Assembly (NCBI GenBank): GCA_947627205.1
Contig: CANQVE010000002.1
Location: 124,001 to 188,000, forward strand
DNA: 64,000 nt
Direction of reading: 5' to 3'
Origin: an uncultured Clostridia bacterium
GTDB taxonomy: Bacteria > Bacillota > Clostridia > Oscillospirales > Ruminococcaceae
The position numbers and the translations under genes are program-made. The notes beneath the pieces were generated by a model, which did no database searches, was not told where the DNA came from, and worked only from the letters and a program-made list of their open reading frames with translations. Within the stretch, counting starts at the first letter, position 1. The number at the start of each line of letters is the position of its first letter. This document shows, in pieces, positions 41,193 to 63,351 of this stretch.

Positions 41193-44100
41193 TTATTTCC
41201 TCTTTTTCTTGCTGAATATAACTATCGCCGCGCCCGAAAGTACCGCCAGGACAGCTGCGCCGCCCGTAACGCCTGTTTCGGGAGAAGAATCGGTTTTGAG
41301 GGAATCCTCCATTACAACTACCGTAACTTCTCCGTTTCCTTTTACTTCAAAGGTGATAGGAAGCGCTGTTTCATAGCCGTCGGGAGCATTCAACTCGATA
41401 AGCGTATACTTCTCGCCTGCCGTAAGCCCTGTTATTCTGTAAGAGCTGTCCGAAGATATCCATCTTTCAACGATAACGCCGTTTTTGTTCTTCAGGATAA
41501 GATGAGCGCCTGCAAGTGCATTGCCGTTTTCGTCGACCTTTGTGATTTCCGTTACCGTCAGCGCATTTTCAAAAGCAAATTCGGTGAGAGAACCGTCTGC
41601 GTTGACCGTGAACTTCTGCGGTTCGGAAATCGCATAGCCGTCGGGAGCTTTCGTTTCGGTTATCGTGTAAGTTTCGCCCGCGACAAGACCTGTGATTTGG
41701 TGAGGTTCTGTTTTCGACTCCCACTCGTCAACCTTAGTGCCGTTCTTGTCTGTTACAATAAGATGAGCGCCTGCAATGGGCTGATTATTTTCGTCAACCT
41801 TGGTTATTTCCGTTACCGTCAGTTCATTACCAAAGGTAACAACTGTAACCTTGTCGCTCTCGACCTTAAACGTTTTCGGTTCGGAAATCGCATAGCCGTC
41901 GGGAGCTTTCGTTTCGGTTATCGTATAAGTTTTGCCCGCTACAAGACCTGTGATTTGGTGAGGTTCTGTTTTCGACTCCCACTCGTCAACCTTAGTGCCT
42001 TTCTCGTCTGTTACAACGAGATGTGCGCCTGCAAGTGCATCGCCGTTTTCATCGACCTTTGTGATCTCGGTTTCGGTCTTTGAGTCTGTCATTCTGACGA
42101 TGGTCGTTGCCTTTACGGTGAACTGAATTTCCTTTGCTACGGTATAGCCGTCGGGAGCAGAAAGCTCAATTAAAGTATAGGTTTTTCCTGCCGTCAGCTT
42201 TTCAATGACCTTTACTTCGTTTCCTGTAACCCAATCAGCTACGGTATCGCCGTTTTCGTCTTTCAGAATAAGGTGAGCGTTCGGAACGAAATTTCCGTCC
42301 TTATCTGTCTTGCTTATCTCGGTAACAGTAACGGTATCTGTCATTTTAAGTTCAAGGACAGTGCCGTCGCCTTTTACGGTAAACTCAATGGTTTCTGCCG
42401 TGTTATAGCCGTCAGGAGCAGTTTTTTCGGAGAGATAATATGTTTCTCCCGCAATAAGACCTGTAATGGTATGAGCGCCTGTTGCCGTTGTCCATGCGTC
42501 AACGGGCTTTCCGTTCTTGTCTGTTACAACAAGTTCAGCGCCCAAAAGAGGATCGCCGTTTTCGTCAACTTTGGTTATCTCGGTTACAGTTGCAGTGTTT
42601 GTAATATTAACTGTAATTGTATTGCTTTCAGCGTCTTCGGAACGTACATATTCTGACGTATATCCGTCGGGAACAATTTCCTTAACGTCATACTTGACAG
42701 CAACAGGCTTTACAACTCCGTCTGCCTTTGTATAAGTGTACTTATCAAGATCATCAAATTTATATGTCCACTTATCACCCGATTTTGTCCATACGGGAAC
42801 AGCGCCCTTTACTTCCGCGCCGTTCGCTTTAAGTATAATCGTTATGTCATCAGGTCTGATATCCTCGCTGTCGTTAACCCAGAACTTTGTTCCCTGAACA
42901 GTAACTTTCTCGGGAGCGAAAGTGTTGGTTATGTTTATCTTGCCGTCGGGAGCAACAGTTGTTTCCGATTTATAGAAAGGAACTTTAACTTCTTCGAGAG
43001 TATAGGTTATTTCATTTCCTGCCTTATCACTTTCGGGAAGCCCGCTTACGGTAAATGTCCACTTGTCGCCGTCTTTTGTCCATTCGGTTTTATAAGTGCC
43101 TTTATAGGGTGTTCCGTTTGCAAAAAGCACAAGCGTTATGTCATCAGGTCTGACATCATAACCGCTATCGCCTGCCCAGGTCTTTGTGCCCGAAATACTT
43201 ACCGCTTTTATATTGAGGAATTTCAGAACATTAGAAGCTACATTTCCCTCGTATTCGGGAATTTCAGCGTTTCCGAGAACCGCAGTTATTTTTTCTGCAA
43301 GCGCCTTTGTATCTGCATCGGGAGTTGCAACTTCTCTCGGATCTTCAACATTGCTGTCGCCTTTGAGCTTGAAATAAGTTCCTATATCATCAACTGCAAA
43401 TCCCTCGGGAGCGGAAACTTCTTTGAGCCAATAAATTCTGTCAAGAGGAAGATCGTTTATTACTACACTGCCCGACTCGGGAATTACAACAGGTTCTGCG
43501 AGCATAGCATCTTCGGTTACATCTCCGAAGTTGTTATAAACGCTGTAGAGCATAAATTCCGCGCCCGCAAGGCTGTGTTCAACGCCGTTTTCAACAAAAT
43601 ACTTGCTGATAGTGACAGAGCCTGTTTCGTTTATGACGTATGCCTGAACTTTGCCGTTAAAAGAAGCGGTTTTTACTTCGGCGGATGCGTTATCCTGGTT
43701 AAGACCGTCTATTGTAAATTTGTTGTTTGTTTCTTTGAGCCAATTCGGATTTACACCCGGATCTACATCAATGACAGTATCATAAACTATCTTTACATAG
43801 GCTTCATCGGGAATATTGAAAACAACGGTATTCCCATCTGAGGGATCGTATGAGAACGAATATTCCGCTCCTTTCAGAGCTTCTTCAGTATTTCCGTCAA
43901 TAAACTGAACGGTTTCGGGAAGAAGAATTAAATGCTCGTTCATCACATCTTTTACAGTAAGCGTTTTTGAATCTTTGATAAGTTCAAGAGCAAGCGGGTT
44001 TATTTCAAGAGTATACCGCGCTTTCATTCTCATGTCCGTGACGTAGTTTTCAGGATCAAATTCTTCATCAACTATAACGCCCGACTTTTTGGCTAACTGC

Positions 44101-46988
44101 GGGAATTTTTTAGCGACAGAAACCGTATTAGATTCTTTAGTTGTGACGTCATAAGTAACTGTCGCGCTGTTTTTGAATGTATAAGAAGAAACGTCGGCAT
44201 GTTCGGAAATAAAGTCTTTTTCAATATCCGAACTGAAGAAGAACGCAATTCTTTTTGCCGACAGTTCTTTTGCCTTTGCTTCAAAATCTGCGGGAGTGGT
44301 AAATTTTATTGTGATCTTTCTTTCGGTTTCATCATAAGCTACCGTATAGCAAGAACTGTCCAGCTCACATTTTTCAAGAGTTTTGGAGGTGGATAAACTG
44401 CTTGATGAAGATGAATAGCCGGATCCGTCCCAATAAACAGCGATCAGCGAGTCTTTATTGAACTTCAAGCCCTCGGGGAGCTTATCTTCAAACGTCAGAA
44501 CATCTGCTTTGCCGTCTCTGTTTGAAGAAATATTGTCAACGGTAATGCTGAACCACCATCCGATAGACATATCATCAGCAAGAGTCTTTTTCTCGCCGCC
44601 GAAACTAACCGACGTTATGCTGTTCTTTGAAAAGTTGCTGAGATTGGGCTTGTCATCGCCTTTTTCGGGAGCCTTATATTGGAGAGTGAAGTTGTCGTTA
44701 TACGGCGGCTCGTCATTTACCTGGAGTGTAGAAGTATTATAAATATTCCTCATCGCTTCTACAAACATATCGGGAATGCTGTATGTACCGTCGCCGTTGT
44801 CTTTGAGCTTTATCTTGGAGTAGTATCTGATAACGCCGTCTAAGTTTCCGTCCAAAATAGCGGAATTAAAAATGAAGCTACTAAAATCAGAGCATGAATT
44901 TGTATCAACAGACCATCTATATCTATCTACATTCAACGATCCTGATGTTATCAAACCGCATTGAGATAAAGATGTTCCGTTCTTATAGAATAATTGCAAA
45001 GCAAAATCATTCGTGTCAAAATAATGCGTAGCAGGATCTGTAAAGCCTGAAACACCCGGATAATATTCGTTATTATAGTATTGATATTGACCGTTTACAT
45101 ATTTTCCGTTTGCAGCAGAAACAAAGCCAAGAATATCTGAAAGAGTAACTTTTCCGCCGCTATTATATAATTTCTTCAAATCGTTGGCTTTTAATGTAAT
45201 TTCCCAAGGAATATCAAGAGTAGACGGATCATGATCTACATCAGGGAAAATATCGCTAAGATTATTAGAAGCACTAGAAGTAAGTCCATACTTATAAGTA
45301 TACCAATTTTTATCAGGACCTTTTGGTTCATAGCCATGAGATTCATAATTACCGGAATTAATACCGAGATTCTTATCCAAAACGTCTATTCCCGGGATTT
45401 CAGAAAAAATATTTGTATAACTAACGGGATAATCTTTTACTCTAACATCCACTTTGTTTACGATAGGACCATTGTTCTGGATACCGTTCTTATTTATATC
45501 ATCATCAAGAATAATAATTCTATACTTAAATCCACGGGAACCATCATTATTTTTATAAAATCCATTATAACAAGCATGATTCAGTTCAGATTCATTCCAA
45601 GTAACTTTTTCCAGATTTCCATCGTTTTGATAAAGGAGATAACTCAAATATGAACCGCCATTATATCCGTTTATACGACTTCCATTAATATAATATTTTC
45701 CATAATAACCATCGTAAAAAGGCAACCATGTTTCATCGCGATTAAGCCTGTTTAAAAATTGATCTTTAAATGTTTTAAGTATTGCTTTAAATTCATTATC
45801 ATCTAAATAATAAAATCCGGTATTTATTCCAATATCGTATTCAAGAACTCTGCAATACTTTACTTTGCCGTTGCTCGTATCTGTAACAGGGACAGTATCA
45901 ATAAACGAACCGTTATAAGGATAAGACCATAAACTTGCAGATTTTGTAACTGACGGTTTATTTGTACTGATCGAAGTACGGGCTTCCTTTTGAGCAGGGT
46001 TCCCATCTGTATCTATATAATCTGCATAAACAGTATTTACAATACTCTTGTTTGCATTAACATACTCTTGCATTAGATCCTCTTCAGAGATCTGAGCAGT
46101 ATACTGTATATTATAAGTGGTAGAAGTATTCTTTCCTGCACCTGCGACCTGTGAAAGAACAATTTTTCCCTCGGGAGACATCTCATACGAAGCAGGCTTT
46201 CCTCCGCTGGTGACAGAGAGGGTACCCTCTTTTACAGAAAAATATTCGGGAAGAATGTCCGTAACAGTAACAGAATCAATAAAGCCTTTAATTGTAACTG
46301 AAATAGAATAAATTGCAGTAAAGTTACCTAAACCATCGTCGGCTAAAGCGTTTGATTTATTCTTAGAGATGCTGACGCTTCCGTTAGAGACATTGTTGTC
46401 ATAGATAACATCAACGCTCTTTTCTCCGTATCCTAGCTTCTGTTTGGAACCGTTTTTGACAGTGCCGTCCTTGTCAAGCTCAATTACGCCGTCAATAATA
46501 AGACCGCCGCTTATGTTGGACTTGTCCTTGACTTTATCTTTGTCGAGGGCAGCTTGGAAATATGTCTTTCTGTCAACGCCCGATGTATCGTCTGAAAAGA
46601 CCTTGTATGTACCTATAGCGTCGCCCTCATAATAGAGAGTTCCCTCGGCAGGCACAGTAAAATTTATACCGTGAGTATTTATCTCGGTCTGTAAATTATA
46701 ATTATCGAGATTGTTCGGTATAAGCCATTTCAGATAAAATTTTACATTATCGCCGTCTTTAACATAAAGAGTATCTTCTGTTTTGCTTACGTCGACAAAA
46801 TCAATGTTTTTATCACTTGGTTTATACCAAAGATGATAATCCACGATTTCCATTTCGACAAAATCTTCCGCTTCTTCTGCGCTTGCTCTGAAGTTCAGCG
46901 AGAACGCCGAGAACACAGAGATCAAAAGCGCGAAAGCTGTCAATACGGATATCGCCTTATCACGGAATTGCCTGACAGCAGTTTTCAT
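41193..46988 (-). CDS. Giant Cna_B/SpaA-like repeat surface protein with SPETG sorting signal
   Basis: Signal peptide; isopeptide-type segments (VSISGTKTWAGDSGYDVRPDDITLVLFANG; VTVQGTKFWVNDSEDIRPDDITIILKANG); repeated TVTEITKVDENG..L.GAHLVVTDKNGTKVDEW units; C-term SPETGVTGGAAVLAVLSGAAIVIFSKKKRK. Confidence 0.93.
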   Translation of the reverse strand: MKTAVRQFRDKAISVLTAFALLISVFSAFSLNFRASAEEAEDFVEMEIVDYHLWYKPSDKNIDFVDVSKTEDTLYVKDGDNVKFYLKWLIPNNLDNYNLQTEINTHGINFTVPAEGTLYYEGDAIGTYKVFSDDTSGVDRKTYFQAALDKDKVKDKSNISGGLIIDGVIELDKDGTVKNGSKQKLGYGEKSVDVIYDNNVSNGSVSISKNKSNALADDGLGNFTAIYSISVTIKGFIDSVTVTDILPEYFSVKEGTLSVTSGGKPASYEMSPEGKIVLSQVAGAGKNTSTTYNIQYTAQISEEDLMQEYVNANKSIVNTVYADYIDTDGNPAQKEARTSISTNKPSVTKSASLWSYPYNGSFIDTVPVTDTSNGKVKYCRVLEYDIGINTGFYYLDDNEFKAILKTFKDQFLNRLNRDETWLPFYDGYYGKYYINGSRINGYNGGSYLSYLLYQNDGNLEKVTWNESELNHACYNGFYKNNDGSRGFKYRIIILDDDINKNGIQNNGPIVNKVDVRVKDYPVSYTNIFSEIPGIDVLDKNLGINSGNYESHGYEPKGPDKNWYTYKYGLTSSASNNLSDIFPDVDHDPSTLDIPWEITLKANDLKKLYNSGGKVTLSDILGFVSAANGKYVNGQYQYYNNEYYPGVSGFTDPATHYFDTNDFALQLFYKNGTSLSQCGLITSGSLNVDRYRWSVDTNSCSDFSSFIFNSAILDGNLDGVIRYYSKIKLKDNGDGTYSIPDMFVEAMRNIYNTSTLQVNDEPPYNDNFTLQYKAPEKGDDKPNLSNFSKNSITSVSFGGEKKTLADDMSIGWWFSITVDNISSNRDGKADVLTFEDKLPEGLKFNKDSLIAVYWDGSGYSSSSSSLSTSKTLEKCELDSSCYTVAYDETERKITIKFTTPADFEAKAKELSAKRIAFFFSSDIEKDFISEHADVSSYTFKNSATVTYDVTTKESNTVSVAKKFPQLAKKSGVIVDEEFDPENYVTDMRMKARYTLEINPLALELIKDSKTLTVKDVMNEHLILLPETVQFIDGNTEEALKGAEYSFSYDPSDGNTVVFNIPDEAYVKIVYDTVIDVDPGVNPNWLKETNNKFTIDGLNQDNASAEVKTASFNGKVQAYVINETGSVTISKYFVENGVEHSLAGAEFMLYSVYNNFGDVTEDAMLAEPVVIPESGSVVINDLPLDRIYWLKEVSAPEGFAVDDIGTYFKLKGDSNVEDPREVATPDADTKALAEKITAVLGNAEIPEYEGNVASNVLKFLNIKAVSISGTKTWAGDSGYDVRPDDITLVLFANGTPYKGTYKTEWTKDGDKWTFTVSGLPESDKAGNEITYTLEEVKVPFYKSETTVAPDGKINITNTFAPEKVTVQGTKFWVNDSEDIRPDDITIILKANGAEVKGAVPVWTKSGDKWTYKFDDLDKYTYTKADGVVKPVAVKYDVKEIVPDGYTSEYVRSEDAESNTITVNITNTATVTEITKVDENGDPLLGAELVVTDKNGKPVDAWTTATGAHTITGLIAGETYYLSEKTAPDGYNTAETIEFTVKGDGTVLELKMTDTVTVTEISKTDKDGNFVPNAHLILKDENGDTVADWVTGNEVKVIEKLTAGKTYTLIELSAPDGYTVAKEIQFTVKATTIVRMTDSKTETEITKVDENGDALAGAHLVVTDEKGTKVDEWESKTEPHQITGLVAGKTYTITETKAPDGYAISEPKTFKVESDKVTVVTFGNELTVTEITKVDENNQPIAGAHLIVTDKNGTKVDEWESKTEPHQITGLVAGETYTITETKAPDGYAISEPQKFTVNADGSLTEFAFENALTVTEITKVDENGNALAGAHLILKNKNGVIVERWISSDSSYRITGLTAGEKYTLIELNAPDGYETALPITFEVKGNGEVTVVVMEDSLKTDSSPETGVTGGAAVLAVLSGAAIVIFSKKKRK

Positions 46989-47182
46989 AACCACTCCACC
47001 TCTCATAAATCAAAAAATCGGACAGTCCTTTTTATCCGCAAGGACAATAACCCTTATAACATTATAACTCTTTTATATACGGTTTGTCAATATGATATTT
47101 TTAAAATATGTGTCGGACCTCAGCATTTGAATATTTTCAACGGAATGGAAAATAAATGTACATTCACTGAGATAATATGCTA

Positions 47183-47473
47183 TTACAAAATTAGTGTACT
47201 TTCCTGATCAAATCCTTTGTCTGTTCCAATAATTTCAACTCGATGCTCCCAATTTTTACCAAGATTATAAAACCTCACCGAATCAGCTTTTATATCTATT
47301 ACTTTAGAAATTCTATTCTTTACATCTGCCAATTGTGCGGGATCTATCAGCATTTCAAACACCGAGTTTTGTACCCTTACTCCGAATTTTTCACATATTC
47401 TCGCAACTTTTCGCAGGCGTTTTGCACCCTTTTCATTTGAAAAATCAACGTCATACGTCACTAACATCATCAT
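47183..47473 (-). CDS. cas2: CRISPR-associated endonuclease Cas2 (type I-C)
   Basis: MMLVTYDVDFSNEKGAKRLRKVARICEKFGVRVQNSVFEMLIDPAQ. Confidence 0.97.
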   Translation of the reverse strand: MMMLVTYDVDFSNEKGAKRLRKVARICEKFGVRVQNSVFEMLIDPAQLADVKNRISKVIDIKADSVRFYNLGKNWEHRVEIIGTDKGFDQESTLIL

Positions 47474-47477
47474 AATA

Positions 47478-48500
47478 TCACCTCCAGAAAAACGGCGGGT
47501 AAACGTCAAGGTCACCGCGCAAATGCCTGGCTAAGAGCATTGCCTGGCAATATGGAATAAGACCTATCGGAACTTTTTCTTTCAAAAACGGATGAGTTAT
47601 TTCTTCCTTTTTTCTTGCTTGCCATTTGTCGATTACTGTTTTGTAGGCTTTGTCGGTGAGTTTAATTTCTCCGTTTTTATTGCTGAAATCATCAGAGTTT
47701 ATCTGTTTTAAGTTTACAAGTGAAATTACAAATCTGTCACAAAGCGGCGCCCTTAATTCCTCCATGATGTCCAAAGCCAAAGAAGGTCTTCCGGGACGCA
47801 GCGTATGCAAATATCCGGCTGCAGTGTCAAGCCCTACTGATTCCAAAGCCGACTGCATGTCATTTTTCATCAGCATATAAGCAAACGACAAAAGAGCGTT
47901 TATTTTATTTTCGGGCGGACGGCGACTTCTTTTTTCAAACTGCATTTCGGGATCGTTGTTTTTCAGCATTTCATCAAACACACTAAAATAGTAATTTGCC
48001 GCCAAACCTTCAATTCCGCGCATTCCGTCAATATTATCGGTTTTAAGAAGTTTTTCATGATATTCTGCTAACATTTCCGCTGAACGTTGTAATTTTTCAG
48101 CCCGATCAGGAGAATTATCCCTTGCACTTTTAAGTAAAACAAATCGGCTGTTTGCTAACTTTCCGCTTAGAATATTACGAACGATCTCAACTGACTGTTC
48201 AGAGTTTATAATATCAAACTGTTTTTTACGAAGAAGTACATTTCCGCTTACTGCTCCATAAGTTCGACCGTAAAATTTTCCGTTGTCGGAATGAAACGAA
48301 ATTGAAATTCCTCTTTCCCCGCAAAATCCGATTAGCGGCGTTGAAACTGTCGTATTTTTTAGGAGAACTATTGATTCGATAGTGTGAGCAGGTATGTGAG
48401 CCTTGTCCTCACCGTTTATTTTCACAGCAATGTTTTCGTTTTTACAATAAACATAACTATCCTCCGAAAGTATATAAAGCACATTTCCGAGTTTCTTCAT
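47478..48500 (-). CDS. cas1: CRISPR-associated endonuclease Cas1 (type I-C)
   Basis: MKKLGNVLYILSEDSYVYCKNENIAVKINGEDKAHIPAHTIESIVLL...GLAANYYFSVFDEML...LSFAYMLM. Confidence 0.97.
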   Translation of the reverse strand: MKKLGNVLYILSEDSYVYCKNENIAVKINGEDKAHIPAHTIESIVLLKNTTVSTPLIGFCGERGISISFHSDNGKFYGRTYGAVSGNVLLRKKQFDIINSEQSVEIVRNILSGKLANSRFVLLKSARDNSPDRAEKLQRSAEMLAEYHEKLLKTDNIDGMRGIEGLAANYYFSVFDEMLKNNDPEMQFEKRSRRPPENKINALLSFAYMLMKNDMQSALESVGLDTAAGYLHTLRPGRPSLALDIMEELRAPLCDRFVISLVNLKQINSDDFSNKNGEIKLTDKAYKTVIDKWQARKKEEITHPFLKEKVPIGLIPYCQAMLLARHLRGDLDVYPPFFWR

Positions 48501-48501
48501 T

Positions 48502-49158
48502 TTATTCCTCCTTAAATGAATTATGTATCATCGTTATATATTTTTTCGCCGATTTTTCTGTGTTTGGCATGCATAGATCATTAAGGGAACATTTTTTGCA
48601 TTTTGGAGAACATTCAGCCTGTGGAACGGTTTGTGAATTTAATAAATTCAAAAGTTGTACTGCCGTTTCAAAGACTGCTTTTCTTTTGTCCTCGTCAAAA
48701 ATCACTTCATGCCGTCTGTGCGAGGTAATATAAAATACAGCTCCTTTATCTATATGACAATTATACATTTCTTCTATACACATTGTCTGTGCGCATAATT
48801 GAAGTTCATATTCTGTTTCATTACGCAAAACGCCGTGTTTATATTCAATCGGATAAGGAATATATTTTTTGTTATCCAAAAACGGGATAACAAAGCCGTT
48901 TATATCTTCATTCATTTCAACTGCGTCGCACTTGCCGAACAAATGCATTTTCTCGGATAAAACAGGCATATCTGTTATGACAATGCAATTTGATGTATGC
49001 TCTGCAGCGGGAGTGTGAACATGCTCGTGTTCACCTCTGCCCATAGCCGTATACGAATTTTCGTTCCATAATTGTTCGATCATTATAAGAGCTGCTCGTC
49101 TTTTGCAATAATTATATTGCGAAATATATGACAAAGGAATTGTTATATTGTCTTCCAT
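48502..49158 (-). CDS. cas4: CRISPR-associated protein Cas4
   Basis: IPLSYISQYNYCKRRAALI; PIEYKHG; C-terminal CSPKCKKCSLNDLC Fe-S cysteines; adjacent to cas1. Confidence 0.96.
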   Translation of the reverse strand: MEDNITIPLSYISQYNYCKRRAALIMIEQLWNENSYTAMGRGEHEHVHTPAAEHTSNCIVITDMPVLSEKMHLFGKCDAVEMNEDINGFVIPFLDNKKYIPYPIEYKHGVLRNETEYELQLCAQTMCIEEMYNCHIDKGAVFYITSHRRHEVIFDEDKRKAVFETAVQLLNLLNSQTVPQAECSPKCKKCSLNDLCMPNTEKSAKKYITMIHNSFKEE

Positions 49159-49168
49159 AAAATTCTCC

Positions 49169-52100
49169 TTTTCAAGTTTTACCCCGCGTGGGGGTATCGC
49201 AAATTCTTTTTTGGCTTCATCTACTTCTTTAGTGTTTCAAGTCATACCCCAGCGTGGGTGTATCCGTTGAGAGCTATGCGGAATTCATACCCGAAACGTT
49301 TCAAGTCATACCCCCGCGTGGGGGGTATCAGGTAAAACAGCTCGCTCAATCCGTTTTTGAGAGTTTCAAGTCATACCCCCGCGTGGGGGGTATCATCCGC
49401 AGTCGGCTCTAAATCCTCTGGAGCAGGTGTTTCAAGTCATACCCCCGCGTGGGGGTATCTCGTTCCCCTAGAAGAAATGACTTTGACGTTAATGTTTCAA
49501 GTCATACCCCCGCGTGGGGGGGTATCAGGCGGGCTGTTGAAGAAAATCGACGTCCCGCCTGTTTCAAGTCATACCCCCGCGTGGGGGGTATCCGGCGTGA
49601 GCTATTTTTGCGGTTCGGTGATGAGCGTTTCAAGTCATACCCCCGCGTGGGATCCGCCCAGCTCAAACCCGCCTGTTGTTTGCCCCTGGTTTCAAGTCAT
49701 ACCCCCGCGTGGGGGGTATCCATTTCCAAGCCCGTATTAAAAAATACATACTTGTTTCAAGTCATACCCCCGCGTGGGGGGTATCAGCCCCAACAATTAA
49801 AATCATTCCACTTTTTATGTTTCAAGTCATACCCCCGCGTGGGGGGTATCACTTCTTCTGTTTTGGTTGTTTTCAGCGAGCGTGTTTCAAGTCATACCCC
49901 CGCGTGGGGGGTATCCCCAAAGGTGCGTATATACAGAAAGTGCAGAAGTTTCAAGTCATACCCCCGCGTGGGGGGTATCCCCAAAGGTGCGTATATACAG
50001 AAAGTGCAGAAGTTTCAAGTCATACCCCCGCGTGGGGGGTATCGTATTTGAAGACGCTATTGTTGATGTGATAGGTTTCAAGTCATACCCCCGCGTGGGG
50101 GGTATCAACATTCACGGCATTGAAAAAGTTGTCGTTATTGTTTCAAGTCATACCCCCGCGTGGGGGTATCCAGTTACGGGCTAATCAGTATCAACAGCAA
50201 ATGCGTTTCAAGTCATACCCCCGCGTGGGGAGTATCCCAGAGAGGTCACTATTTGAGGGATAGCCCAAGTTTCAAGTCATACCCCCGCGTGGGGGGTATC
50301 TTTTATCGCATGACGAGTGTTTTCTTTGTGAGTGTTTCAAGTCATACCCCCGCGTGGGGGGTATCTTGACAATTATATCTCTGTATCGGAAAGCGAATTT
50401 GTTTCAAGTCATACCCCCGCGTGGGGGGGTATCAGAATAATTTTTGAAAGGAAAAAATATAAATGCTGTTTCAAGTCATACCCCCGCGTGGGGGGTATCA
50501 GAATAATTTTTGAAAGGAAAAAATATAAATGCTGTTTCAAGTCATACCCCCGCGTGGGGGGTATCCAAAGGGCGTGAAGTATTACACTGTAAGTGGTGCG
50601 GTTTCAAGTCATACCCCCGCGTGGGGGGTATCCTGCCCTTTTCTTATAGTACTGTTGCTTTGGTCGTTTCAAGTCATACCCCCGCGTGGGGGGTATCATT
50701 GATAGCCGCCGCCGCTATCGGCGACGCCATAGTTTCAAGTCATACCCCCGCGTGGGGGGTATCCCAAATTCCTCGTTCATAAAATCATCAAATACCGAGT
50801 TTCAAGTCATACCCCCGCGGGGGGGGTATCCCCATATGCACTAATGTAAGAAAAAATGGCGAAATATCGCGGTTTTTAGATGTTTAACCGTAATTTTTAA
50901 CTTAAAAATGTTTGAAAAATAATTAGATATTTACTAATTTAATCTTTTATGATAATGGAAAAAGTGAGTATTATAGCCATTTGCTAACAAAGTTAGTGCA
51001 TATGGGGGGTATCCCCAAGCTCGGAGATAACGCCGTTAAACACTACGTTTCAAGTCATACCCCCGCGGGGGGGTATCATAGGATTTGATTTGCTTATATT
51101 TCACCTTCCCTGTTTCAAGTCATACCCCCGCGGGGGGGGTATCAAATACCACGGAAAAGGTTATTTCCTGAACATGGTTTCAAGTCATACCCCCGCGTGG
51201 GGGGTATCATCCCCGGCAATAACTTTATTCTTTGCACTCATGTTTCAAGTCATACCCCCGCGTGGGGGGGTATCGGGAACTGTTCCTGTTGAGAGTATGG
51301 CAGAACAGTTTCAAGTCATACCCCCGCGTGGGGGGTATCCTATCGGCAGGACGGGGAGAAAGGGAAAGAACATGTTTCAAGTCATACCCCCGCGTGGGGG
51401 GTATCCAGTGCCTTGTACATCTCCTGCCTTGCGTTTTCCGTTTCAAGTCATACCCCCGCGTGGGGGGTATCGGAAATGCTTGTATCAATCGGGCGCGACC
51501 TTAAGTTTCAAGTCATACCCCCGCGTGGGGGGTATCGGAAATGCTTGTATCAATCGGGCGCGACCTTAAGTTTCAAGTCATACCCCCGCGTGGGGGGTAT
51601 CCGCAGAAGTAAGAAAGCAGAAGTGCTACGAAATGTTTCAAGTCATACCCCCGCGTGGGGGGTATCGCGAAAACATGCCGAAACGCTCACGGCTTGATGT
51701 TTCAAGTCATACCCCCGCGTGGGGGGTATCGGAAGCTTGCGCCGAAAGAGTGCGTATCATTGGTTTCAAGTCATACCCCCGCGTGGGGGGTATCCAGCAT
51801 TTTTGGCATATAAAATCGGTATCATAGTTTCAAGTCATACCCCCGCGTGGGGGTATCTGTTTCTTCGTCAAGTTCTCTCAGTTCCTTTTCGTTTCAAGTC
51901 ATACCCCCGCGTGGGGGGTATCAGCGATAACTTGTAGTTTACATTTACGTTTTTAGTTTCAAGTCATACCCCCGCGTGGGGGGTATCAGGCTACCTCTGC
52001 AAAAAGCGCGGTCTGGATTACGTTTCAAGTCATACCCCCGCGTGGGGGGTATCCGTTGTGGTTTTTCCCTCTTTCTGTCTTTATTAGTTTCAAGTCATAC

Positions 52101-55100
52101 CCCCGCGTGGGGGGTATCTGCGGCTTGGGTTTACAGCTCTACGCTGTATGGTGTTTCAAGTCATACCCCCGCGTGGGGGGTATCCGCCTTTTGTGCGCCC
52201 GGTGTTGAAAATTATAGGTTTCAAGTCATACCCCCGCGTGGGGGGTATCTTGTTATATTCTTGATGGAAACGTGCTGATTCCTGTTTCAAGTCATACCCC
52301 CGCGTGGGGGGTATCGTGAAGAATGTGCGTATATTTGCCGCTGATTTTGGGTTTCAAGTCATACCCCCGCGTGGGGGGTATCCGCTCGGCAGCTCTGGCG
52401 GCTCTGCCTCGTCCGGGTTTCAAGTCATACCCCCGCGTGGGGGGTATCCGCGACGGCGTGACAATAGGAAAAATCGGTACAGTTTCAAGTCATACCCCCG
52501 CGTGGGGGGTATCAAAGTGCGTATACAAAAAACCTCTTAATGGAAATGTTTCAAGTCATACCCCCGCGTGGGGGGTATCCAGATCCCCTAATAATGACGC
52601 AAAACCTCGGCAAGTTTCAAGTCATACCCCCGCGTGGGGGGTATCCTTTGCCGTTTCAAGCTCCTGTTTTTCTGCGTATGTTTCAAGTCATACCCCCGCG
52701 TGGGGGGTATCTGTTGCATACCCGTTGAGAACTCCATTGATAGTGTTTCAAGTCATACCCCCGCGTGGGGGTATCGCGCCGCCTGCGCGGCAAAAGAACT
52801 TCTTACATGTTTCAAGTCATACCCCCGCGTGGGGGGTATCTGCGCCGTTTGCGACGGGTATCGTCTGTCCCATAGTTTCAAGTCATACCCCCGCGTGGGG
52901 GGTATCCCGCCCTGTTGCCTTAAAAGGATAACTTCATCGCCGTTTCAAGTCATACCCCCGCGTGGGGGGTATCACACTTCCGGCAGAATTACAACATTGG
53001 GGTTTTTGTTTCAAGTCATACCCCCGCGTGGGGGGTATCTGTACGCCTGCGACATTGTTCATTTTTGTAAAGTTTCAAGTCATACCCCCGCGTGGGGGGT
53101 ATCAGGAGCCGTTTGTACTTTACGACGGCACAAACCGCGTTTCAAGTCATACCCCCGCGTGGGGGGTATCGATTTTATCTTGAACCGCAATCACGGAACT
53201 AACGTTTCAAGTCATACCCCCGCGTGGGGGGTATCCTTGAATGATAATAAATCAATCGCACTTTCAAAGTTTCAAGTCATACCCCCGCGTGGGGGGTATC
53301 CGTTGTACTCATACCGTCGCTTATTGCCTTTCTGTTTCAAGTCATACCCCCGCGTGGGGGTATCATTATGGCTTTGCTGTCGGAATTAAGCTGTCCGGTT
53401 TCAAGTCATACCCCCGCGTGGGGGGTATCCTTGTTGCTTACTGCCCGTAATCGAGCGGGTATGTTTCAAGTCATACCCCCGCGTGGGGGGTATCAGTTCT
53501 GCAAACGGGATTTCTTCACCCGCTTTTGTTTCAAGTCATACCCCCGCGTGGGGGGTATCGCATAACCGAGATTGAGATAATTTGCCGCTGTAGTTTCAAG
53601 TCATACCCCCGCGTGGGGGGTATCTTCATCTTTAAAATCCTCTCTTTCTTAAGATATGTTTCAAGTCATACCCCCGCGTGGGGGGTATCAAGAATTGGTT
53701 GGGTGATCTCCACCGCTGTATAGTTTCAAGTCATACCCCCGCGTGGGGGGTATCGTTTGCTTGGGAAGAAAACTGTCAGTGCAAATCAAGTTTCAAGTCA
53801 TACCCCCGCGTGGGGGGTATCTCAAGGCTTTACTTTCAATTAGTTGTTTGAGCAGTTTCAAGTCATACCCCCGCGTGGGGGGTATCGAATTGCATCGGAC
53901 GGCATAAAGCGATCCCAAACGTTTCAAGTCATACCCCCGCGTGGGGGGTATCATACCGATATGAAGCAATATACCCTTTGTATGTTTCAAGTCATACCCC
54001 CGCGTGGGGGGTATCCGTCTCAGCTGAGGGCGGCGAGGTCGAGAAGGTGTTTCAAGTCATACCCCCGCGTGGGGGGTATCAGAAAGTGGCCTACGAGGTC
54101 ACGGGCAACAAGATGTTTCAAGTCATACCCCCGCGTGGGGGGTATCGTTTCTTCGCCGCTTTGTCCTCGGCCTTTGCCGTGTTTCAAGTCATACCCCCGC
54201 GTGGGGGGTATCTGACTGTATCTATTATTTCTCTTGCGCTGGTTGTTTCAAGTCATACCCCCGCGTGGGGGGTATCCAGCTTATTTTACCGCCGCTTGTG
54301 GAGTTCCTCGTTTCAAGTCATACCCCCGCGTGGGGGGTATCTTCACGACTATTGGCAAGCTCACTTTTTAAGAAGTTTCAAGTCATACCCCCGCGTGGGG
54401 GGTATCCGCATAGAGCCGTCAGCGTTCGTTGTTTCTATTGTGTTTCAAGTCATACCCCCGCGTGGGGGTATCTTTGTCGATTTCCGCGCCTGTCAGGTCC
54501 TTAACGTTTCAAGTCATACCCCCGCGTGGGGGGTATCTCAACAGCATTTACAGCATTTTTGCCGTTCTTTTTGTTTCAAGTCATACCCCCGCGTGGGGGG
54601 TATCCGTCATACCTTGCAGGCGACGTTCCGAGCGCGTTGTTTCAAGTCATACCCCCGCGTGGGGGGTATCTTTCCCGAATGGGAATGACCCGTCACGAAG
54701 ATGTTTCAAGTCATACCCCCGCGTGGGGGGTATCCTGTATCTGCCTTACGACAAAAGACGGCGGTTCTGTTTCAAGTCATACCCCCGCGTGGGGGGTATC
54801 GCGAACTGCAGAAGAAAATTGAGGAGCTCAAAGTTTCAAGTCATACCCCCGCGTGGGGGGTATCCTGTCAGAAAGCTTGAGGGACAAACTATGAAAATGT
54901 TTCAAGTCATACCCCCGCGTGGGGGGTATCCTGTATCTTCGGCAGAAAATCCCAATGATCCCGCGTTTCAAGTCATACCCCCGCGTGGGGGGTATCATTT
55001 CGGGAGAGTGTGATCCTCCCGCACCAATAGGTTTCAAGTCATACCCCCGCGTGGGGGGTATCCAATATTTTATGATGCCTAATAATCCTCTAATAGTTTC

Positions 55101-57478
55101 AAGTCATACCCCCGCGTGGGGGGTATCGTCCGACTGTCTTCCCTTTACCCTCTTATTATATGTTTCAAGTCATACCCCCGCGTGGGGGGTATCTTCCATT
55201 GCATACGCCGTTTTTGTCCGCATTGTGTTTCAAGTCATACCCCCGCGTGGGGGGTATCCGGATAAATCAAATTCTTCTGCAAGCGGTTCGTGTTTCAAGT
55301 CATACCCCCGCGTGGGGGGTATCTGCGAACTTTGCCCTTATCCGACTTCAATATGTGTTTCAAGTCATACCCCCGCGTGGGGGGTATCATAGCTTACAGT
55401 GAGCAACAAGTAATCAATATATAGTTTCAAGTCATACCCCCGCGTGGGGGGTATCCAGGATTGGAGCAAAGTTGCACTGATTGATACCGGTTTCAAGTCA
55501 TACCCCCGCGTGGGGGGTATCCAGGCGTTATAATTCCGCTCCATTCGCCCAAAGTTTCAAGTCATACCCCCGCGTGGGGGGTATCTCCAGTTCCTCAGCC
55601 TCCGCGGCCAGCTCGGAAGTTTCAAGTCATACCCCCGCGTGGGGGGTATCATAAGCTCTATTGCAACTCCAACCGCTACCGATGTTTCAAGTCATACCCC
55701 CGCGTGGGGGGTATCATAGAAAATATTATGTGCGAGAGGTATTGGTATGTTTCAAGTCATACCCCCGCGTGGGGGGTATCCCGCACGCCTAAATCAGCAA
55801 CCCTTGATATGCGGTTTCAAGTCATACCCCCGCGTGGGGGGTATCTATTTTATCCATTTTCGCCTTTTAATACGCTTTCGTTTCAAGTCATACCCCCGCG
55901 TGGGGGGTATCTCAGGGCTTTATGCTTACGGGGATACATTGCGCGTTTCAAGTCATACCCCCGCGTGGGGGGTATCTTTTTGGGAAGAAAGGGGTATGAG
56001 TATGGATATGTTTCAAGTCATACCCCCGCGTGGGGGGTATCAATTCTATTTGAATAGTTTCTTCATCACTTCCGTGTTTCAAGTCATACCCCCGCGTGGG
56101 GGGTATCGGGGAAAGGTAAAAAGAAAGGAACATGTTTTTTGAGTTTCAAGTCATACCCCCGCGTGGGGGGTATCGCTTGAATTAGTGAAAAAAATCCCAG
56201 AAATCATTGTTTCAAGTCATACCCCCGCGTGGGGGGTATCGAAATTAGTCTGTCAGGCGCGAACCTGACAGAAGTTTCAAGTCATACCCCCGCGTGGGGG
56301 GTATCGGTTCACCTTTACAACTTGCAGGAAGGGGTTCAGGTTTCAAGTCATACCCCCGCGTGGGGGGTATCTTTCAGATACTCATCAGGGGTGTTTTTTT
56401 ACTAGTTTCAAGTCATACCCCCGCGTGGGGGGTATCGTCGAGGGCCGCCCGAAGGCGCGCCGCTATAAGGTTTCAAGTCATACCCCCGCGTGGGGGGTAT
56501 CGGCCGTCAAACACTTCGCTCCGCCTGATGACCTGTTTCAAGTCATACCCCCGCGTGGGGGGTATCACGCTCGCGGTGTTCAGCTCTGCGAGGTAGGAGG
56601 TTTCAAGTCATACCCCCGCGTGGGGGGTATCAGCTGTATCTCTTTTTTGAGATAGTAGAGCTGTGTTTCAAGTCATACCCCCGCGTGGGGGGTATCTTTG
56701 CGTGTAGTCCTTGTTCTCGCTTTGCGTCAGGTTTCAAGTCATACCCCCGCGTGGGGGGTATCCAGCGCCGCTACGAGTCGAACACCGCCTACCTGTTTCA
56801 AGTCATACCCCCGCGTGGGGGGTATCTCAGGGGGGAGTTCAGAGGGGGTTCGCCCCTTTCTGTTTCAAGTCATACCCCCGCGTGGGGGGTATCAAGTGCG
56901 AGGGTTTACGCGGTGGGTGGCAAACAGTTTCAAGTCATACCCCCGCGTGGGGGGTATCGAGCTGGCGAAAGCACGGCAGGCCACGTTTTATGTTTCAAGT
57001 CATACCCCCGCGTGGGGGGTATCCTCCCTAAATCCCATTCATCGCTTGATGATATGTGTTTCAAGTCATACCCCCGCGTGGGGGGTATCTTCTTTGGCGT
57101 GTCCCCGGTCTACCTCATCGGAGTTTCAAGTCATACCCCCGCGTGGGGGGTATCCCTGCTGCCCTTGCCGGGGTGTTTGTCCGCCCTGTTTCAAGTCATA
57201 CCCCCGCGTGGGGGGTATCGTGTAATTATGGAACGACTATCAGGGGATTTCGTTTCAAGTCATACCCCCGCGTGGGGGGTATCGAATTTTGCAGGAACTC
57301 CTCGCAGAGGTGAGAAGTTTCAAGTCATACCCCCGCGTGGGGGGTATCCCTGTATGCGGATCAGTTCAAGGCGAATATGCAGTTTCAAGTCATACCCCCG
57401 CGTGGGGGGTATCATGCCGTGGGTAATAAACTGTAAAGGAGAATAAGTTTCAAGTCATACCCCCGCGTGGGGGGTATC
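49169..57478 (-). CRISPR. Type I-C CRISPR array, about 124 repeats plus one degenerate terminal and one truncated repeat; crRNA-sense repeat GATACCCCCCACGCGGGGGTATGACTTGAAAC (32 bp), spacers mostly 33-35 bp
   Basis: Plus-strand GTTTCAAGTCATACCCCCGCGTGGGGGGTATC recurring every 63-68 bp. Orientation assigned from the I-C-like 3' handle (TTGAAAC), the AT-rich leader at the cas7 side and degenerate repeats at the cas4 side. Confidence 0.98.
50830..51007. mobile_element. MITE-like small inverted-repeat element inserted in the CRISPR array
   Basis: Perfect 15-bp terminal inverted repeats CCCCATATGCACTAA / TTAGTGCATATGGGG with further imperfect inverted similarity (AAAATGGC / GCCATTT); AT-rich non-coding interior; flanked by duplicated repeat-end sequence. 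Confidence 0.75.
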
Positions 57479-57694: not shown

Positions 57695-57696
57695 TG

Positions 57697-58689
57697 TTAT
57701 CTGAACAAATCGCTATTTGCAGGAACAGTTTTCCACTGTATCTCACTGTAAGGATCTGTCAAAAATCCTACTTCAACTCCTTTCGGAACGCTGTCTGTTT
57801 TGATTTGGAAGTTATAGTCTGTATAATTTCTGGCAAATTCAATTTCGGGATTTCTTGAAACGCTTACAAGCTCAAATAATTTATGTGCAGGCGCACAACC
57901 GAGCTTGCTCTGACGCTTGCGCTGATTAAGGTCGCTATCGGTTCCCACATGCTTAAAAATTATCAAAGGAGTTATTACCGACATTTCGCCCTTGCTTGCA
58001 GAACGGTCATGTTCATACATATTAAGTATTGCCTCGAAAAGTATCTTCAGATCTTTGTCATCAAATCCCGTTTCTTCGGCAAGATTTGCGCTTATAAACC
58101 CTCTTGCCTCATAAAGTCCATACGGAATAAGCTGTTTTCTTCCCATTGTGCGGAGTTTTTCCTCATCGGTTGCTTTCTCGGCCTTTTCGTAATCTTCATA
58201 CGAAACAGCGCCCTTTACATCCTCTGTTTTGCACATTCTTGTAATTGAAATATCAAGCGGCAAAATAGGATCTACCGATTTTGCAAACGTTATCTGAACA
58301 GGTCCGCGGACTTGTCCCGCGTTTGGTCCTGTTGAAAGAACGCCGCCGAAAGTCCTCACATCATAAAACAGTTCACAGGCTTTTCTGCGCGACTTGTAAA
58401 GGCTGTCCTTGTCCTTTGCGCCCATTTCCACGCCTGCAAGTGATTTTGATTTTGCGATAAACTTATTGATGTTAGTTGCATTTTGCATAATTATGCTCAT
58501 GCCGTCTTCCTCTGGATAAGCCGCCTGGATATAATTTCTTATGCGGCGTTTAATTGCGGCGTCTGTTATGTAGCCGTGCATATCCTGCGGATCTACACGA
58601 GGAGAGTTTCCCATGTCGGGATCGCCGTTGGGGTTACCGTTCACACACTGAATGTAGAACATAATTTCGTATCTGTTTTCAATAGCCAT
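57697..58689 (-). CDS. cas7: Type I-C Cascade backbone protein Cas7
   Basis: NRYEIMFYIQCVNGNPNGDPDMGNSPRVDPQDMHGYITDAAIKRRIRNYI; DVRTFGGVLSTGPNAGQVRGPVQITFAKSVDPI. Confidence 0.97.
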   Translation of the reverse strand: MAIENRYEIMFYIQCVNGNPNGDPDMGNSPRVDPQDMHGYITDAAIKRRIRNYIQAAYPEEDGMSIIMQNATNINKFIAKSKSLAGVEMGAKDKDSLYKSRRKACELFYDVRTFGGVLSTGPNAGQVRGPVQITFAKSVDPILPLDISITRMCKTEDVKGAVSYEDYEKAEKATDEEKLRTMGRKQLIPYGLYEARGFISANLAEETGFDDKDLKILFEAILNMYEHDRSASKGEMSVITPLIIFKHVGTDSDLNQRKRQSKLGCAPAHKLFELVSVSRNPEIEFARNYTDYNFQIKTDSVPKGVEVGFLTDPYSEIQWKTVPANSDLFR

Positions 58690-58692
58690 TTT

Positions 58693-60510
58693 TTATTCCT
58701 CCGTTACTGTTTTTTTCTTGTATATTTCCTCGTTCTGTGCATAATAACCCAGAGCGAATTCCGACTGCTGTTCAAGGGTAAAGGTTTTCGGAAGTGAACT
58801 GCCGATTTTTGACGCAATGTCACTTAACATCTTGTCATAATACACCGCACTTCCCTTTTGCTCCTGACCGAGCTTTGAAAGATGATGCTGCGACAGCATT
58901 GCCAGCTTTCCGAACACAAGCGCGGGCGATGTGCATGCAGATGTAAAATACCGTTCTACAACGCCTGCGTTTACATCTCCGAGCGCTTTATTCTGGATAG
59001 CCGCATAGACCGCTATCATTCGTCCGAGTTGGTAAGCCTTTGACGGACTTTCGGGATTTAAGTTTTCCATTATCAAATATTCCTCCTTGTTTTGATTTCT
59101 GTATTTTCTGTTAAGCCAGACTTTTAAGATCTGACAAGATACCCTGTCTATATTTCTCCGCTTGCGGGTTTCGTCATTCGACGAGTTGTACATATCGTGA
59201 CGAATATAGTTTACAGCCCTTACTGCAACCGTATCGGGCAACTCGGTGTTATGCGTTATTGCGTAAATTATTCTTGGAGAAATTCCCGAAAGCTCTTTGT
59301 TTACTCGTTCGGCAAACTTCCCGCCGGATGTGCTGTATGACACAAGCCTTGAATAAATTGCAAATAATTTCCTATAACGATTTCCACATAATGACAGATC
59401 ATCATACCACTGCTTTATGTTTTTGAAAAGCTCACCGTAAGTACCCTCGTCATAACTTCGCACCATAACTCTACCGTTTACGCCGCTTAATGACATCATA
59501 TAGTATCTGTTTTTAGGCTCTTCGGGACATATCCCTTTTTGTATACAGTCAAAAAGTCCGCGCACATACGACTCGTCAGTTTGCTTGTCCTCATCGTCGC
59601 TTTGTTCGTCCTCGCCGCCGCTAAAACCGAAATCAAAATCCAAAACGTCGAAAATATCCGCTTCCACAGGCTTTGAGTACCAATGAATATTTTTAGCACC
59701 TGCTAGAGAGTTCGATTTTTTGTTGCCCTTATTTTTTCCTTTTACCGCGTCAATTGACTTCGACTCGCTTAAAAGTGTTGTAAGCGCCGCGTTTACAGCA
59801 GTTATTGCTTCATCGGACACTGAGGCATTCGCTGCTTGTTTAAATCCGTAAGAACAGTATGCGTCTTTATCATAACCGATAATTGTATCACCGCTTGTGT
59901 GACCGCCTACACTTACCAAACCCGAGAACTTAGGAGCAGTCCGCACGGGCTCTGTAAGTTCCCCCGTTATAAAGCAGCGAACTTTTCCGCTCTGCTCTTT
60001 TTTAGATGAGGTTTTCTTTTCCTTGTTGCTAGCACGAAATTCTTCCCACCAATCAAAATAGCATGGATCGCTCTCCAAAGGGTTGCCGTCAAATTTAATG
60101 CTGACTAAAGTGTCGGATTTGAATTTCTTTGTAGGTAGATTTGAAATAATAACATCCCGCTGTTCTTCGAGAGATCTAACTGCTTTCGCAAAAACAGGAC
60201 TAAACTGACCAATATCACGCATACGCGACATATAAAAATCATATTTTGTCTGCCGAGGAAATTTCCCGTCTTTATCGGGAAGATTTAAAATGATCTCCGC
60301 TTTTTCGGCTATAATGTTGCTTTTCGTGAAACTTTGCGCCGCGCTTCCCATATCGGGGCAAAATGTCTTTTTGTCGTCATCTACTGCGTCAAATCCGACA
60401 AAATTTCCGTTTACATCAAAAGATATGTAATACTTTACAGACTTTTCCTTAAACCCCGGACGCGCCGTAATGCCGTTGTCTACCGCGTATTTATACAGCT
60501 CTTCAAGCAT
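58693..60510 (-). CDS. cas8c: Type I-C large subunit Cas8c
   Basis: Position and length (~605 aa); GKVRCFITGELTEPVRTAPKFSGLVSVGGHTSGDTIIGYDKDAYCSYGFKQAANASVS; start at 60510 with GGAGGTGG SD. Confidence 0.93.
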   Translation of the reverse strand: MLEELYKYAVDNGITARPGFKEKSVKYYISFDVNGNFVGFDAVDDDKKTFCPDMGSAAQSFTKSNIIAEKAEIILNLPDKDGKFPRQTKYDFYMSRMRDIGQFSPVFAKAVRSLEEQRDVIISNLPTKKFKSDTLVSIKFDGNPLESDPCYFDWWEEFRASNKEKKTSSKKEQSGKVRCFITGELTEPVRTAPKFSGLVSVGGHTSGDTIIGYDKDAYCSYGFKQAANASVSDEAITAVNAALTTLLSESKSIDAVKGKNKGNKKSNSLAGAKNIHWYSKPVEADIFDVLDFDFGFSGGEDEQSDDEDKQTDESYVRGLFDCIQKGICPEEPKNRYYMMSLSGVNGRVMVRSYDEGTYGELFKNIKQWYDDLSLCGNRYRKLFAIYSRLVSYSTSGGKFAERVNKELSGISPRIIYAITHNTELPDTVAVRAVNYIRHDMYNSSNDETRKRRNIDRVSCQILKVWLNRKYRNQNKEEYLIMENLNPESPSKAYQLGRMIAVYAAIQNKALGDVNAGVVERYFTSACTSPALVFGKLAMLSQHHLSKLGQEQKGSAVYYDKMLSDIASKIGSSLPKTFTLEQQSEFALGYYAQNEEIYKKKTVTEE

Positions 60511-61162
60511 TGTTTCCACCTCCATCGGGACGTAAAACGCTTTCATCATGAAAATCGGGAATATTTATCACTCCGTTTTCCATCTTTGCACGAAACAGTG
60601 TCACATAAGGCTCTGCGTTCTTTGTGACCTTTGAAACATCAAGATCGAAAACATCATACAGCATTAACCCCAGATCTCTGCTTTCTTTTATCGGCTGAAG
60701 ATCGCTCGGGTTGTCAAAATAACATACAAACTCGCGCAAACCAAACGACGGCTGGCAAAAGCATTTTCCGTGGTCAACGCGGTTTTTCGCCTGAGCGTAA
60801 AGCTGTTCAAGCGTGCCCGAAAAATCCTTGCGCTTTACAATTTCCGCTGTGATCCGATAGCGAACATCTTTCAAAACCACGCTCTGGCGCTGGGTGCGAT
60901 CGTCCTCAACAAGCATCGGAGTTAGATTTCCGATTTTGGAATTTATCACCTCGTTGCGCTTGAAACTCGTGAATTGTATCGGCTTTAACACCTCGATCTT
61001 CTTGACTTGCCAATAAAATTCAACGGGTTTTGAATAGATAGACGCTAAAACTCCCCTCGCCGCCGACGGCGTTATCACGGGATAACTTAGTCTTTCCACC
61101 TTGCTCTCCGGTCTGGAAAAACACGCAAAATCTGCCCAAACCTCAACATTAAATTGTTTCAA
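60503..61162 (-). CDS. cas5c: Type I-C Cas5c (predicted crRNA-processing endonuclease)
   Basis: FNVEVWADFACFSRPESKVERLSYPVITPSAARGVLASIYSKPVEFYWQVKKIEVLKPIQFTSFKRNEV. Confidence 0.96.
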   Translation of the reverse strand: MKQFNVEVWADFACFSRPESKVERLSYPVITPSAARGVLASIYSKPVEFYWQVKKIEVLKPIQFTSFKRNEVINSKIGNLTPMLVEDDRTQRQSVVLKDVRYRITAEIVKRKDFSGTLEQLYAQAKNRVDHGKCFCQPSFGLREFVCYFDNPSDLQPIKESRDLGLMLYDVFDLDVSKVTKNAEPYVTLFRAKMENGVINIPDFHDESVLRPDGGGNNA

Positions 61163-61173
61163 GTTTCCACCTC

Positions 61174-63351
61174 CTAATATCTATAATCAAGACTGCTGTC
61201 ATTGTCAAAGACAAGGCCCTCGTCTTTTGTGTAAAATTTTTTTGCCGAAAGAATAAACCAATCATACGTTTCAAATTTTCCTCGGCTTGTGACTAACGCA
61301 GCAGGACGCTCGCAAAGCTCCGATAATTTCTCATCATTATAACTTGTTACGGTTATTGGAGCAGCGCGCTTTATCCATGATTTTGTAATTCCCTTTTCTG
61401 TGGCTTCTTTATACAATTCATCGAATAATTCGCGCTCGCCCTCATACGGCACAAGAACATTAACTCCCGTTTTTCCGATCAATTTATACCGTTTTTCAAC
61501 TTCTTCAAAATCAAAATTATTAACGGCGTTTACAAGCTCTTTTTTGTCCTCGCTGCAATCTTTAAAAAGTTCGGCATAATATTCTCTTATATGTTCGGGA
61601 TTGTTGATGTCAATGCTGTGACGTGCGGAAATTAAGCGAACGCAATTCGCGGCATTTCCGTAAAACGGCGATGGATACAACTTCTCTTCATTCGGAATAA
61701 ATACAGTCATTTTCCCGTCTGTTTTTCCGTTCCTGTTGCAGCGTCCCGCACATTGAATTATAGAATCAAGCGGCGCTAATGCTCTGTACATCACGTCAAA
61801 ATCAAGGTCAACTCCTGCCTCTATACATGAAGTTGAAACCAGCCTGCAAGAAAGACCATTTTTCTGACGTTGAATTATTTCCTCTATAACTTTTGCGCGA
61901 TGTGACTTGCACATATCAGTTGAAATATAAAAACAGTCGTCCACGCGTTCTTTCAGCAGAGAAAATAACTTGTGAGAATGATCTTTTCTGTTCACAACAC
62001 AGCAGACGCTTTTTTCACACGCCATTTCTTCTGCAATAGTTTCAAGATCCGTAGACTCGGAGATATTCCATTCAACATTAACTCGCCGTGTTTTTTCATA
62101 AAGCAAACGAGGATCGGAAATTATCTCTCTCGGTGCGTAATTTATATCTTTTCTAAGATCCAATGCCGGCTGTGTTGCCGTAGACATAACAACCGTGCAG
62201 CGAAACATTTCACAAAGCGAATTAAGCGATTCCATGCTTGTTCCCATAAGCTCCGCAGGAAGACTTTGCGCCTCGTCAAACACTATAACGCTGTTTGCTA
62301 TGCTGTGCAAAAATCTCATGTCTGCGGGCATTCTCTTAAACAGAGTTTCAAAGAATTTAACTGAGGTTGTAACAATAACAGGCGACGTCCACCTTTCCGC
62401 AAAAAGTTTTGTCTGCTCATTATAATTAGTCATACTGTGAGCTTCAAGAACATTCCCGCAAATCTCACGGTATATTTTCGCATTCTGGTCAATTATCGAC
62501 AAAAACGGCAAAACAAAAATAATTCGTTCCTTTTTAAATTTTTCGGCATGCTTTGCGGCAAATCCCAAAAGCGCAAGAGTTTTCCCTGTTCCCGTCGGCG
62601 CGGTAAGAGTAAATACCCCGCTTTCTTTTTCAGCCGCGGCAACACAATCGTTGTAAACACTGCTGCGGATATTATTTAATTCGGGATTGGAATTTGAATT
62701 TTTAATTATTTCCGCACGGTATTTTTCAAGGTTTTCAAATATCAATTCCGGATTTATTTTTTCATCTGTCGATTTTTCTATATACTCCTCGTCCTCATGA
62801 GTTGCCGATGCCGTGTAATCAGCATCGGCAAGGCAGGAAAGCAACATTCTTGTGTGCAGCATACGCGGCAGATTTTTATAAAATGAATTATTTTCATCTA
62901 TCATTTTTAAATTAAAACTTGGAATTCCAACCTCGTTTTTAAGAAAAGCTAACGCAGTTTTGTATTGTTCTGCACCCGATACCGCAAACACTCTGCCTGT
63001 TTTGTCTTTGGAATTTTCGGTTTCATAAGAGTCCCTAAGCCTGCCCTCAATTTCATTGTCAATTCCTTTATGATGCGCGTAAACTACCCGTGCAAGGAGT
63101 TTCTGCTTACTCTGCCAAAGGAAAAACGCCCCGCAGGCTTCGTGATTTATTCCGTGTTCTTTATGTTCAAGAACGTCCTGAAACTTTTTTGATGCTTTTC
63201 CCGCGTCATGAAACAAACCTAGAAGTTCTCCGCAATCGCCTTCTCCGAATGATTCTGCGAACTGCCGCGCAAGATCAGATGTCTTTTTCAGATGAACTTT
63301 TAAAAGTTCTTTTTCTCCAAAGCTGTTTTCCGACCTCGAATAATACGTCAT
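61174..63351 (-). CDS. cas3: CRISPR-associated helicase/nuclease Cas3 (HD domain + helicase)
   Basis: LLGLFHDAGKASKKFQ (HD); TAPTGTGKTLALL; VIVFDEAQSLPAE; CAGRCNRNG. Confidence 0.97.
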   Translation of the reverse strand: MTYYSRSENSFGEKELLKVHLKKTSDLARQFAESFGEGDCGELLGLFHDAGKASKKFQDVLEHKEHGINHEACGAFFLWQSKQKLLARVVYAHHKGIDNEIEGRLRDSYETENSKDKTGRVFAVSGAEQYKTALAFLKNEVGIPSFNLKMIDENNSFYKNLPRMLHTRMLLSCLADADYTASATHEDEEYIEKSTDEKINPELIFENLEKYRAEIIKNSNSNPELNNIRSSVYNDCVAAAEKESGVFTLTAPTGTGKTLALLGFAAKHAEKFKKERIIFVLPFLSIIDQNAKIYREICGNVLEAHSMTNYNEQTKLFAERWTSPVIVTTSVKFFETLFKRMPADMRFLHSIANSVIVFDEAQSLPAELMGTSMESLNSLCEMFRCTVVMSTATQPALDLRKDINYAPREIISDPRLLYEKTRRVNVEWNISESTDLETIAEEMACEKSVCCVVNRKDHSHKLFSLLKERVDDCFYISTDMCKSHRAKVIEEIIQRQKNGLSCRLVSTSCIEAGVDLDFDVMYRALAPLDSIIQCAGRCNRNGKTDGKMTVFIPNEEKLYPSPFYGNAANCVRLISARHSIDINNPEHIREYYAELFKDCSEDKKELVNAVNNFDFEEVEKRYKLIGKTGVNVLVPYEGERELFDELYKEATEKGITKSWIKRAAPITVTSYNDEKLSELCERPAALVTSRGKFETYDWFILSAKKFYTKDEGLVFDNDSSLDYRY

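Follow-up and report, generated by a model that had tools for sequence, protein, structure and literature searches.

The window analysed here, a 64-kb stretch of DNA (64,000 nucleotides) from the genome of an uncultured gut Clostridia bacterium, carries a type I-C CRISPR locus whose array is interrupted by a short insertion (Table 1). The type I-C set is complete (cas3, cas5c, cas8c, cas7c, cas4, cas1c and cas2c) and all seven genes are open; the host system appears to be intact. The array sits between cas7 and the cas4-cas1-cas2 genes (47183-63351); in most type I-C loci the array usually follows cas2. The leader is inferred to lie on the right, in the region 57479-57697, because the repeat sense ends GACTTGAAAC, the repeats at the left end are degenerate and the right end is AT-rich.

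Table 1. Features of the type I-C locus and of the element inserted in its array (positions in the window)
Feature	Position	Strand	Details
cas4-cas1-cas2	47183..49158	-	ORFs intact; adjoins the array at its trailer end
Type I-C CRISPR array	49234..57478	-	124 recognised repeats; seen from the element, 99 lie towards the leader and 25 towards the trailer
Complete CRISPR repeat on the left flank	50799..50830	-	GCGG variant; retained
Target duplication, left copy	50822..50832	.	GGGGGTATCCC; on the + strand, the last 9 nt of the repeat plus CC
MITE	50833..51004	.	172 bp, AT-rich, non-coding; perfect 12-bp TIRs CATATGCACTAA/TTAGTGCATATG; present in two more identical copies elsewhere in the genome
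Left TIR	50833..50844	+	CATATGCACTAA (CCCCATATGCACTAA with the target Cs counted)
Right TIR	50993..51004	-	
Target duplication, right copy	51005..51015	.	GGGGGTATCCC
33-nt spacer	51014..51046	-	downstream (crRNA sense) repeat displaced by the element
cas3-cas5c-cas8c-cas7c	57697..63351	-	ORFs intact

Several other features of the locus were recorded. Three pairs of neighbouring spacers are identical (49916/49980, 50434/50500 and 51472/51537), reflecting either tandem duplications of repeat-spacer units or assembly effects. Within the array's trailer portion, at 49627-49660, a repeat is truncated on its G-rich side (CGTGGGATCCGCC) by an internal deletion. Beyond the cas4-cas1-cas2 genes, positions 41193-47006 encode a putative surface protein of 1937 aa, with several repeats of Cna-B-like appearance and a C-terminal hydrophobic stretch followed by a basic tail. 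In a contig of a rabbit-gut MAG (L018), CRISPR repeats stand head to head (near 685 on the + strand and 10881 on the - strand), which points to an inverted junction within the array or else to a fold-back in the assembly.

The sequence bears out the 15-bp inverted pair CCCCATATGCACTAA/TTAGTGCATATGGGG and the duplicated flanks that the earlier note had described (50798-51046). The TIRs are perfect over 12 bp, and reach 15 bp when the C/G of the target is included. Element boundaries were set by the CAT end, as used in related IS, and anchoring the ends in this way corrects the size given previously, about 178 bp, to 172 bp. The ORF list contains no frame over this short, non-coding element, and no other perfect 15-bp inverted pair spaced by 60-300 bp was found in the window outside the array. 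Excision of the element together with one duplication leaves the repeat at 50799-50830 followed by a 33-nt spacer, CCCAAGCTCGGAGATAACGCCGTTAAACACTAC, as had been proposed. In the reconstructed empty site the repeat directly adjoins the spacer starting CCCAAGCTC, and spacers of 33 nt are the commonest in the array (58/124). A GCGG variant is confined to the three repeats around the element (50799, 51047 and 51112) and occurs nowhere else in the array; being common to all three, it therefore predates the insertion or is independent of it.

The genome to which the window belongs (2.25 Mb in 54 contigs) holds two more copies, on contigs G000:C33 and C32, identical to the array copy over 172/172 bp, and the three identical copies thus occupy three different contigs. 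Both additional copies sit outside any CRISPR array, within about 150-340 bp of contig ends, one with GGGCTTTGCCC on both sides and the other with GGGCAAAGCCC on both sides (in the L003 orientation). A GGG-N5-CCC target, the preference of IS231A, with an 11-bp duplication is found at all three copies, the targets being GGGGGTATCCC, GGGCTTTGCCC and GGGCAAAGCCC. The identity of the three copies, each with a separate matching duplication of its own, is the sequence signature of recent transposition, and the element in the array is a genuine insertion, though an ordinary kind of event. The MITE reading proposed earlier holds up, given these identical copies with independent target duplications and a related element of another genome that combines the same left end with an IS4-type transposase. 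Copies with the same TIRs, which the earlier note had suggested looking for in the genome, were thus recovered; the matching transposase sought along with them was found neither in this genome nor in the genus. The DNA of the element had no match in plasmid and phage collections.

Relatives in other genomes consist largely of fragments. A truncated relative, a right-end fragment with 95% identity, is present in a sister species (G007). Ends starting CATATGCACTAACTTA occur in G033, G002, G242 and G758, mostly directly at contig ends, as would be expected of multicopy IS that collapse in assembly. GGG-N5-CCC-like sequence adjoins the ends in G033, G002 and G242 and the majority of the G758 and G998 ends. 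In G998 (L194-L202), about 12 single ends CATATGCACTAACCTA/CATACGCACTAACTTA lie beside GGG-N5-CCC-like sites; neither a second end nor a transposase was found for them, and they are possibly a degenerate one-ended repeat family. A scan of viral contigs for CCCATATGCACTAA returned 74 matches, about the chance level, with no convincing inverted pair.

A link to a transposase comes from G314, a member of another family of the same order. Its genome contains three MITEs of 210-260 bp with ends CATATGCACTAA and CATTTGCACTAA, each flanked left and right by GGGG-N5-CCCC, and also a larger element in which the same left end is followed by an IS4-type transposase. The transposase gene is interrupted by a nested insertion, otherwise broken and cut by a contig end. 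One fragment of 127 aa matches the NCBIfam model transpos_IS4_1 with E=8.9e-5, which is below the curated whole-protein cut-off as expected of a short fragment, and another matches PF01609 (DDE_Tnp_1) with E=0.0013, also below the curated cut-off; the C-terminal YREK region was not recovered from these fragments. The nested element itself (L150, G314:C29, reverse strand, about 1881-2752), which we take to be IS427-type, is flanked by a TTA duplication within the IS4-type gene; with ends and a duplication of its own, its transposase was rejected as a partner of the MITE. The PF01609 transposases of the genus, among them one in G033 that is presumably IS1182-like, were rejected as well, since the loci examined have no matching ends. 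No intact autonomous copy with the same ends was found among the genomes examined. Multicopy IS are often absent from draft assemblies, and several of the related contigs end about 70-115 bp inside the IS.

Plasmid-borne IS and characterised families help to place the element. The best plasmid relative of the G314 transposase is an Acinetobacter IS (34% identity over 127 aa), which has ends CATACGCGCCAACTTAAG starting with CAT, an 11-bp duplication ACCTAAACACC and the motif Y-2-R-3-E-6-K (YREK). The next is IS421/IS186, two near-identical elements, whose transposase is about 30% identical to the G314 fragment. All six IS421 loci have the TIR CATAAGCGCTAACTTAA and duplications of 10-11 bp, of the type GGATACTGTC or GGGGCTTACCC; this TIR agrees with the MITE ends at 13/17 positions and with the related IS ends at 14-15. 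The likeness extends to the GGGG..CCCC targets and to duplications of 10-11 bp, whereas IS421/IS186 is an autonomous enterobacterial IS of 1339 bp and the present element is non-autonomous, 172 bp long and inserted at targets with N5 spacing. The target preference of IS186 is GGGG(N6/N7)CCCC (PMC6925257). The IS231 subgroup has ends of the form CAT-------AA--TAA--- and direct repeats of 10-12 bp (De Palmenaer et al., PMC2266710), and MIC231 cassettes are trans-activated by the IS231 transposase (PMC1196294). The left end of the MITE, CATATGCACTAATGTAA, fits this pattern fully, and the right end fits at CAT and AA but not at TAA. With IS231 and MIC231 the MITE would share these ends, duplications within the 10-12-bp range and the occurrence of trans-mobilised derivatives; it differs in having no cargo gene, in its host, an uncultured Clostridia-type lineage, and in that its own genome yielded no partner transposase. 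The element would therefore be best classed as a MITE descended from an IS4-family IS of the IS231/IS186 type.

How such an element came to lie in an array can be followed at the level of its target. The repeats of the array end GGGGGGTATC and the affected spacer starts CCC; the GGGG-N5-CCCC target is present because a repeat ending GGGGGTATC precedes a spacer with this start, and two more vacant sites of the same repeat/CCC-spacer kind lie at 49906 and 49970. Genome-wide there are 52 GGGG-N5-CCCC sites, six of which, in three pairs, are duplications that the element itself produced, and therefore about 49 sites existed before insertion. Many of the other sites are GGGGCTTTGCCCC-type hairpins, as at the landing sites of the other two copies. 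Before insertion, 4/49 strict sites were inside the array and none in the remainder of the 64-kb window; the array amounts to 0.37% of the genome yet holds about 8% of the targets. For one of three insertions to hit the array, the probability is therefore about 0.2, which calls for no special link to CRISPR, and the insertion into the array is fully accounted for by the target preference of the transposon.

We put at about 93% the probability that a non-autonomous MITE derivative of an IS4-family, IS231/IS186-like IS transposed into the array. A transposase supplied in trans would have cut out the 172-bp element and inserted it at GGGG-N5-CCCC through a staggered cut; this site would arise where a repeat ending GGGGGGTATC meets a spacer beginning CCC.

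An unlikely alternative is that the insertion was selected as a switch, with an internal promoter or terminator governing expression of the 25 trailer-side repeats and cas4-cas1-cas2. AT-rich insertions often bring promoters, and the minus strand has a TATAAT-like hexamer close to the element's right end; however, a consensus scan inside the element detected no above-chance promoter reading along the array and no terminator, and the target preference already explains the insertion in full. Another alternative, quite improbable, assigns the element to a family whose duplications are 5 bp long (IS1634-type, for example) and counts the C4/G4 as part of the TIR. The earlier note had left the duplication length ambiguous among 5, 7, 9, 11 and 13 bp, and at each palindromic target it can indeed be read as anything in that range. 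However, ends flanked by CTC or other non-CCC sequence also occur, which puts the element start at CAT, and at the CAT ends of the relatives, IS421 and the Acinetobacter IS, the duplications are unambiguously 10-11 bp long. By analogy with the IS231 subgroup and IS421/IS186 the choice narrows to 11 bp, the length fixed for the array copy by comparison with IS421 and the Acinetobacter IS.

That a multicopy MITE was mis-stitched into the array during assembly is very unlikely. The other two copies do lie close to contig ends, where assemblies break up in multicopy sequence, but each copy has a matching duplication on both sides, and a chimera would not yield GGGGGTATCCC on both sides together with a restored 33-nt spacer. 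Finally, a decayed older leader or a scar from the fusion of two arrays with an internal leader between them, the counter-reading named in the earlier note, would likewise be AT-rich, non-coding and flanked by repeats, but the chance of it is negligible: similarity to the real leader (57479-57697) is limited to an 11-bp chance match, the TIRs are perfect and the target duplication exact, and the identical copies outside any CRISPR array already refute it.

The consequences of the MITE insertion for the array appear to be limited. It had been suggested that one repeat lost its handle; instead, the left repeat (50799-50830) is complete, and the right side duplicates only the first 9 nt of the repeat in crRNA sense. 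The upstream repeat and 5' handle are kept for every spacer, and Cas5c would for this reason still cut all units. Only the spacer at 51014-51046 has no downstream repeat hairpin, since 9 nt of repeat and the MITE come after it, and a single crRNA precursor extended at its 3' side by about 180 nt is predicted. Processing is probably altered for this one guide RNA only, and the effect on immunity would be small. The TIRs can pair in the transcript, and the fold of the region has z = -5.1, weak evidence given that the region includes two repeat hairpins. An exact 24-nt search of IMG/VR for the target of the affected spacer found no match.

MITEs in CRISPR arrays are rare but already known. HqIRS37 in a CRISPR of Haloquadratum walsbyi HBSQ001 (PMC3119063) is likewise a MITE inserted in an array; it interrupts a spacer of a residual locus that has five spacers and no cas genes, whereas the site here is a repeat-spacer junction in a large array with intact cas genes. 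One IS and a 132-bp MITE have been reported in euryarchaeal CRISPR loci (summarised in PMC4390879), and insertions of IS and MITEs into cas genes are widespread (PMC10359306). What the present case adds is of mild interest, namely an insertion site composed jointly by a repeat and a spacer. It is doubtful, though conceivable, that G-rich CRISPR repeats are a recurrent landing pad for IS186/IS231-type elements, so that spacer acquisition makes insertion sites and arrays are systematically interrupted; if this were true, each new spacer starting CC/CCC on the G-rich side would create a GGG-N5-CCC target at the junction. The insertion provides a base-level account of how a transposon may land in an array that offers already-preferred targets, without any special interaction with CRISPR, and it makes a testable prediction, that of a single crRNA with a long 3' tail and processing that would otherwise be normal.
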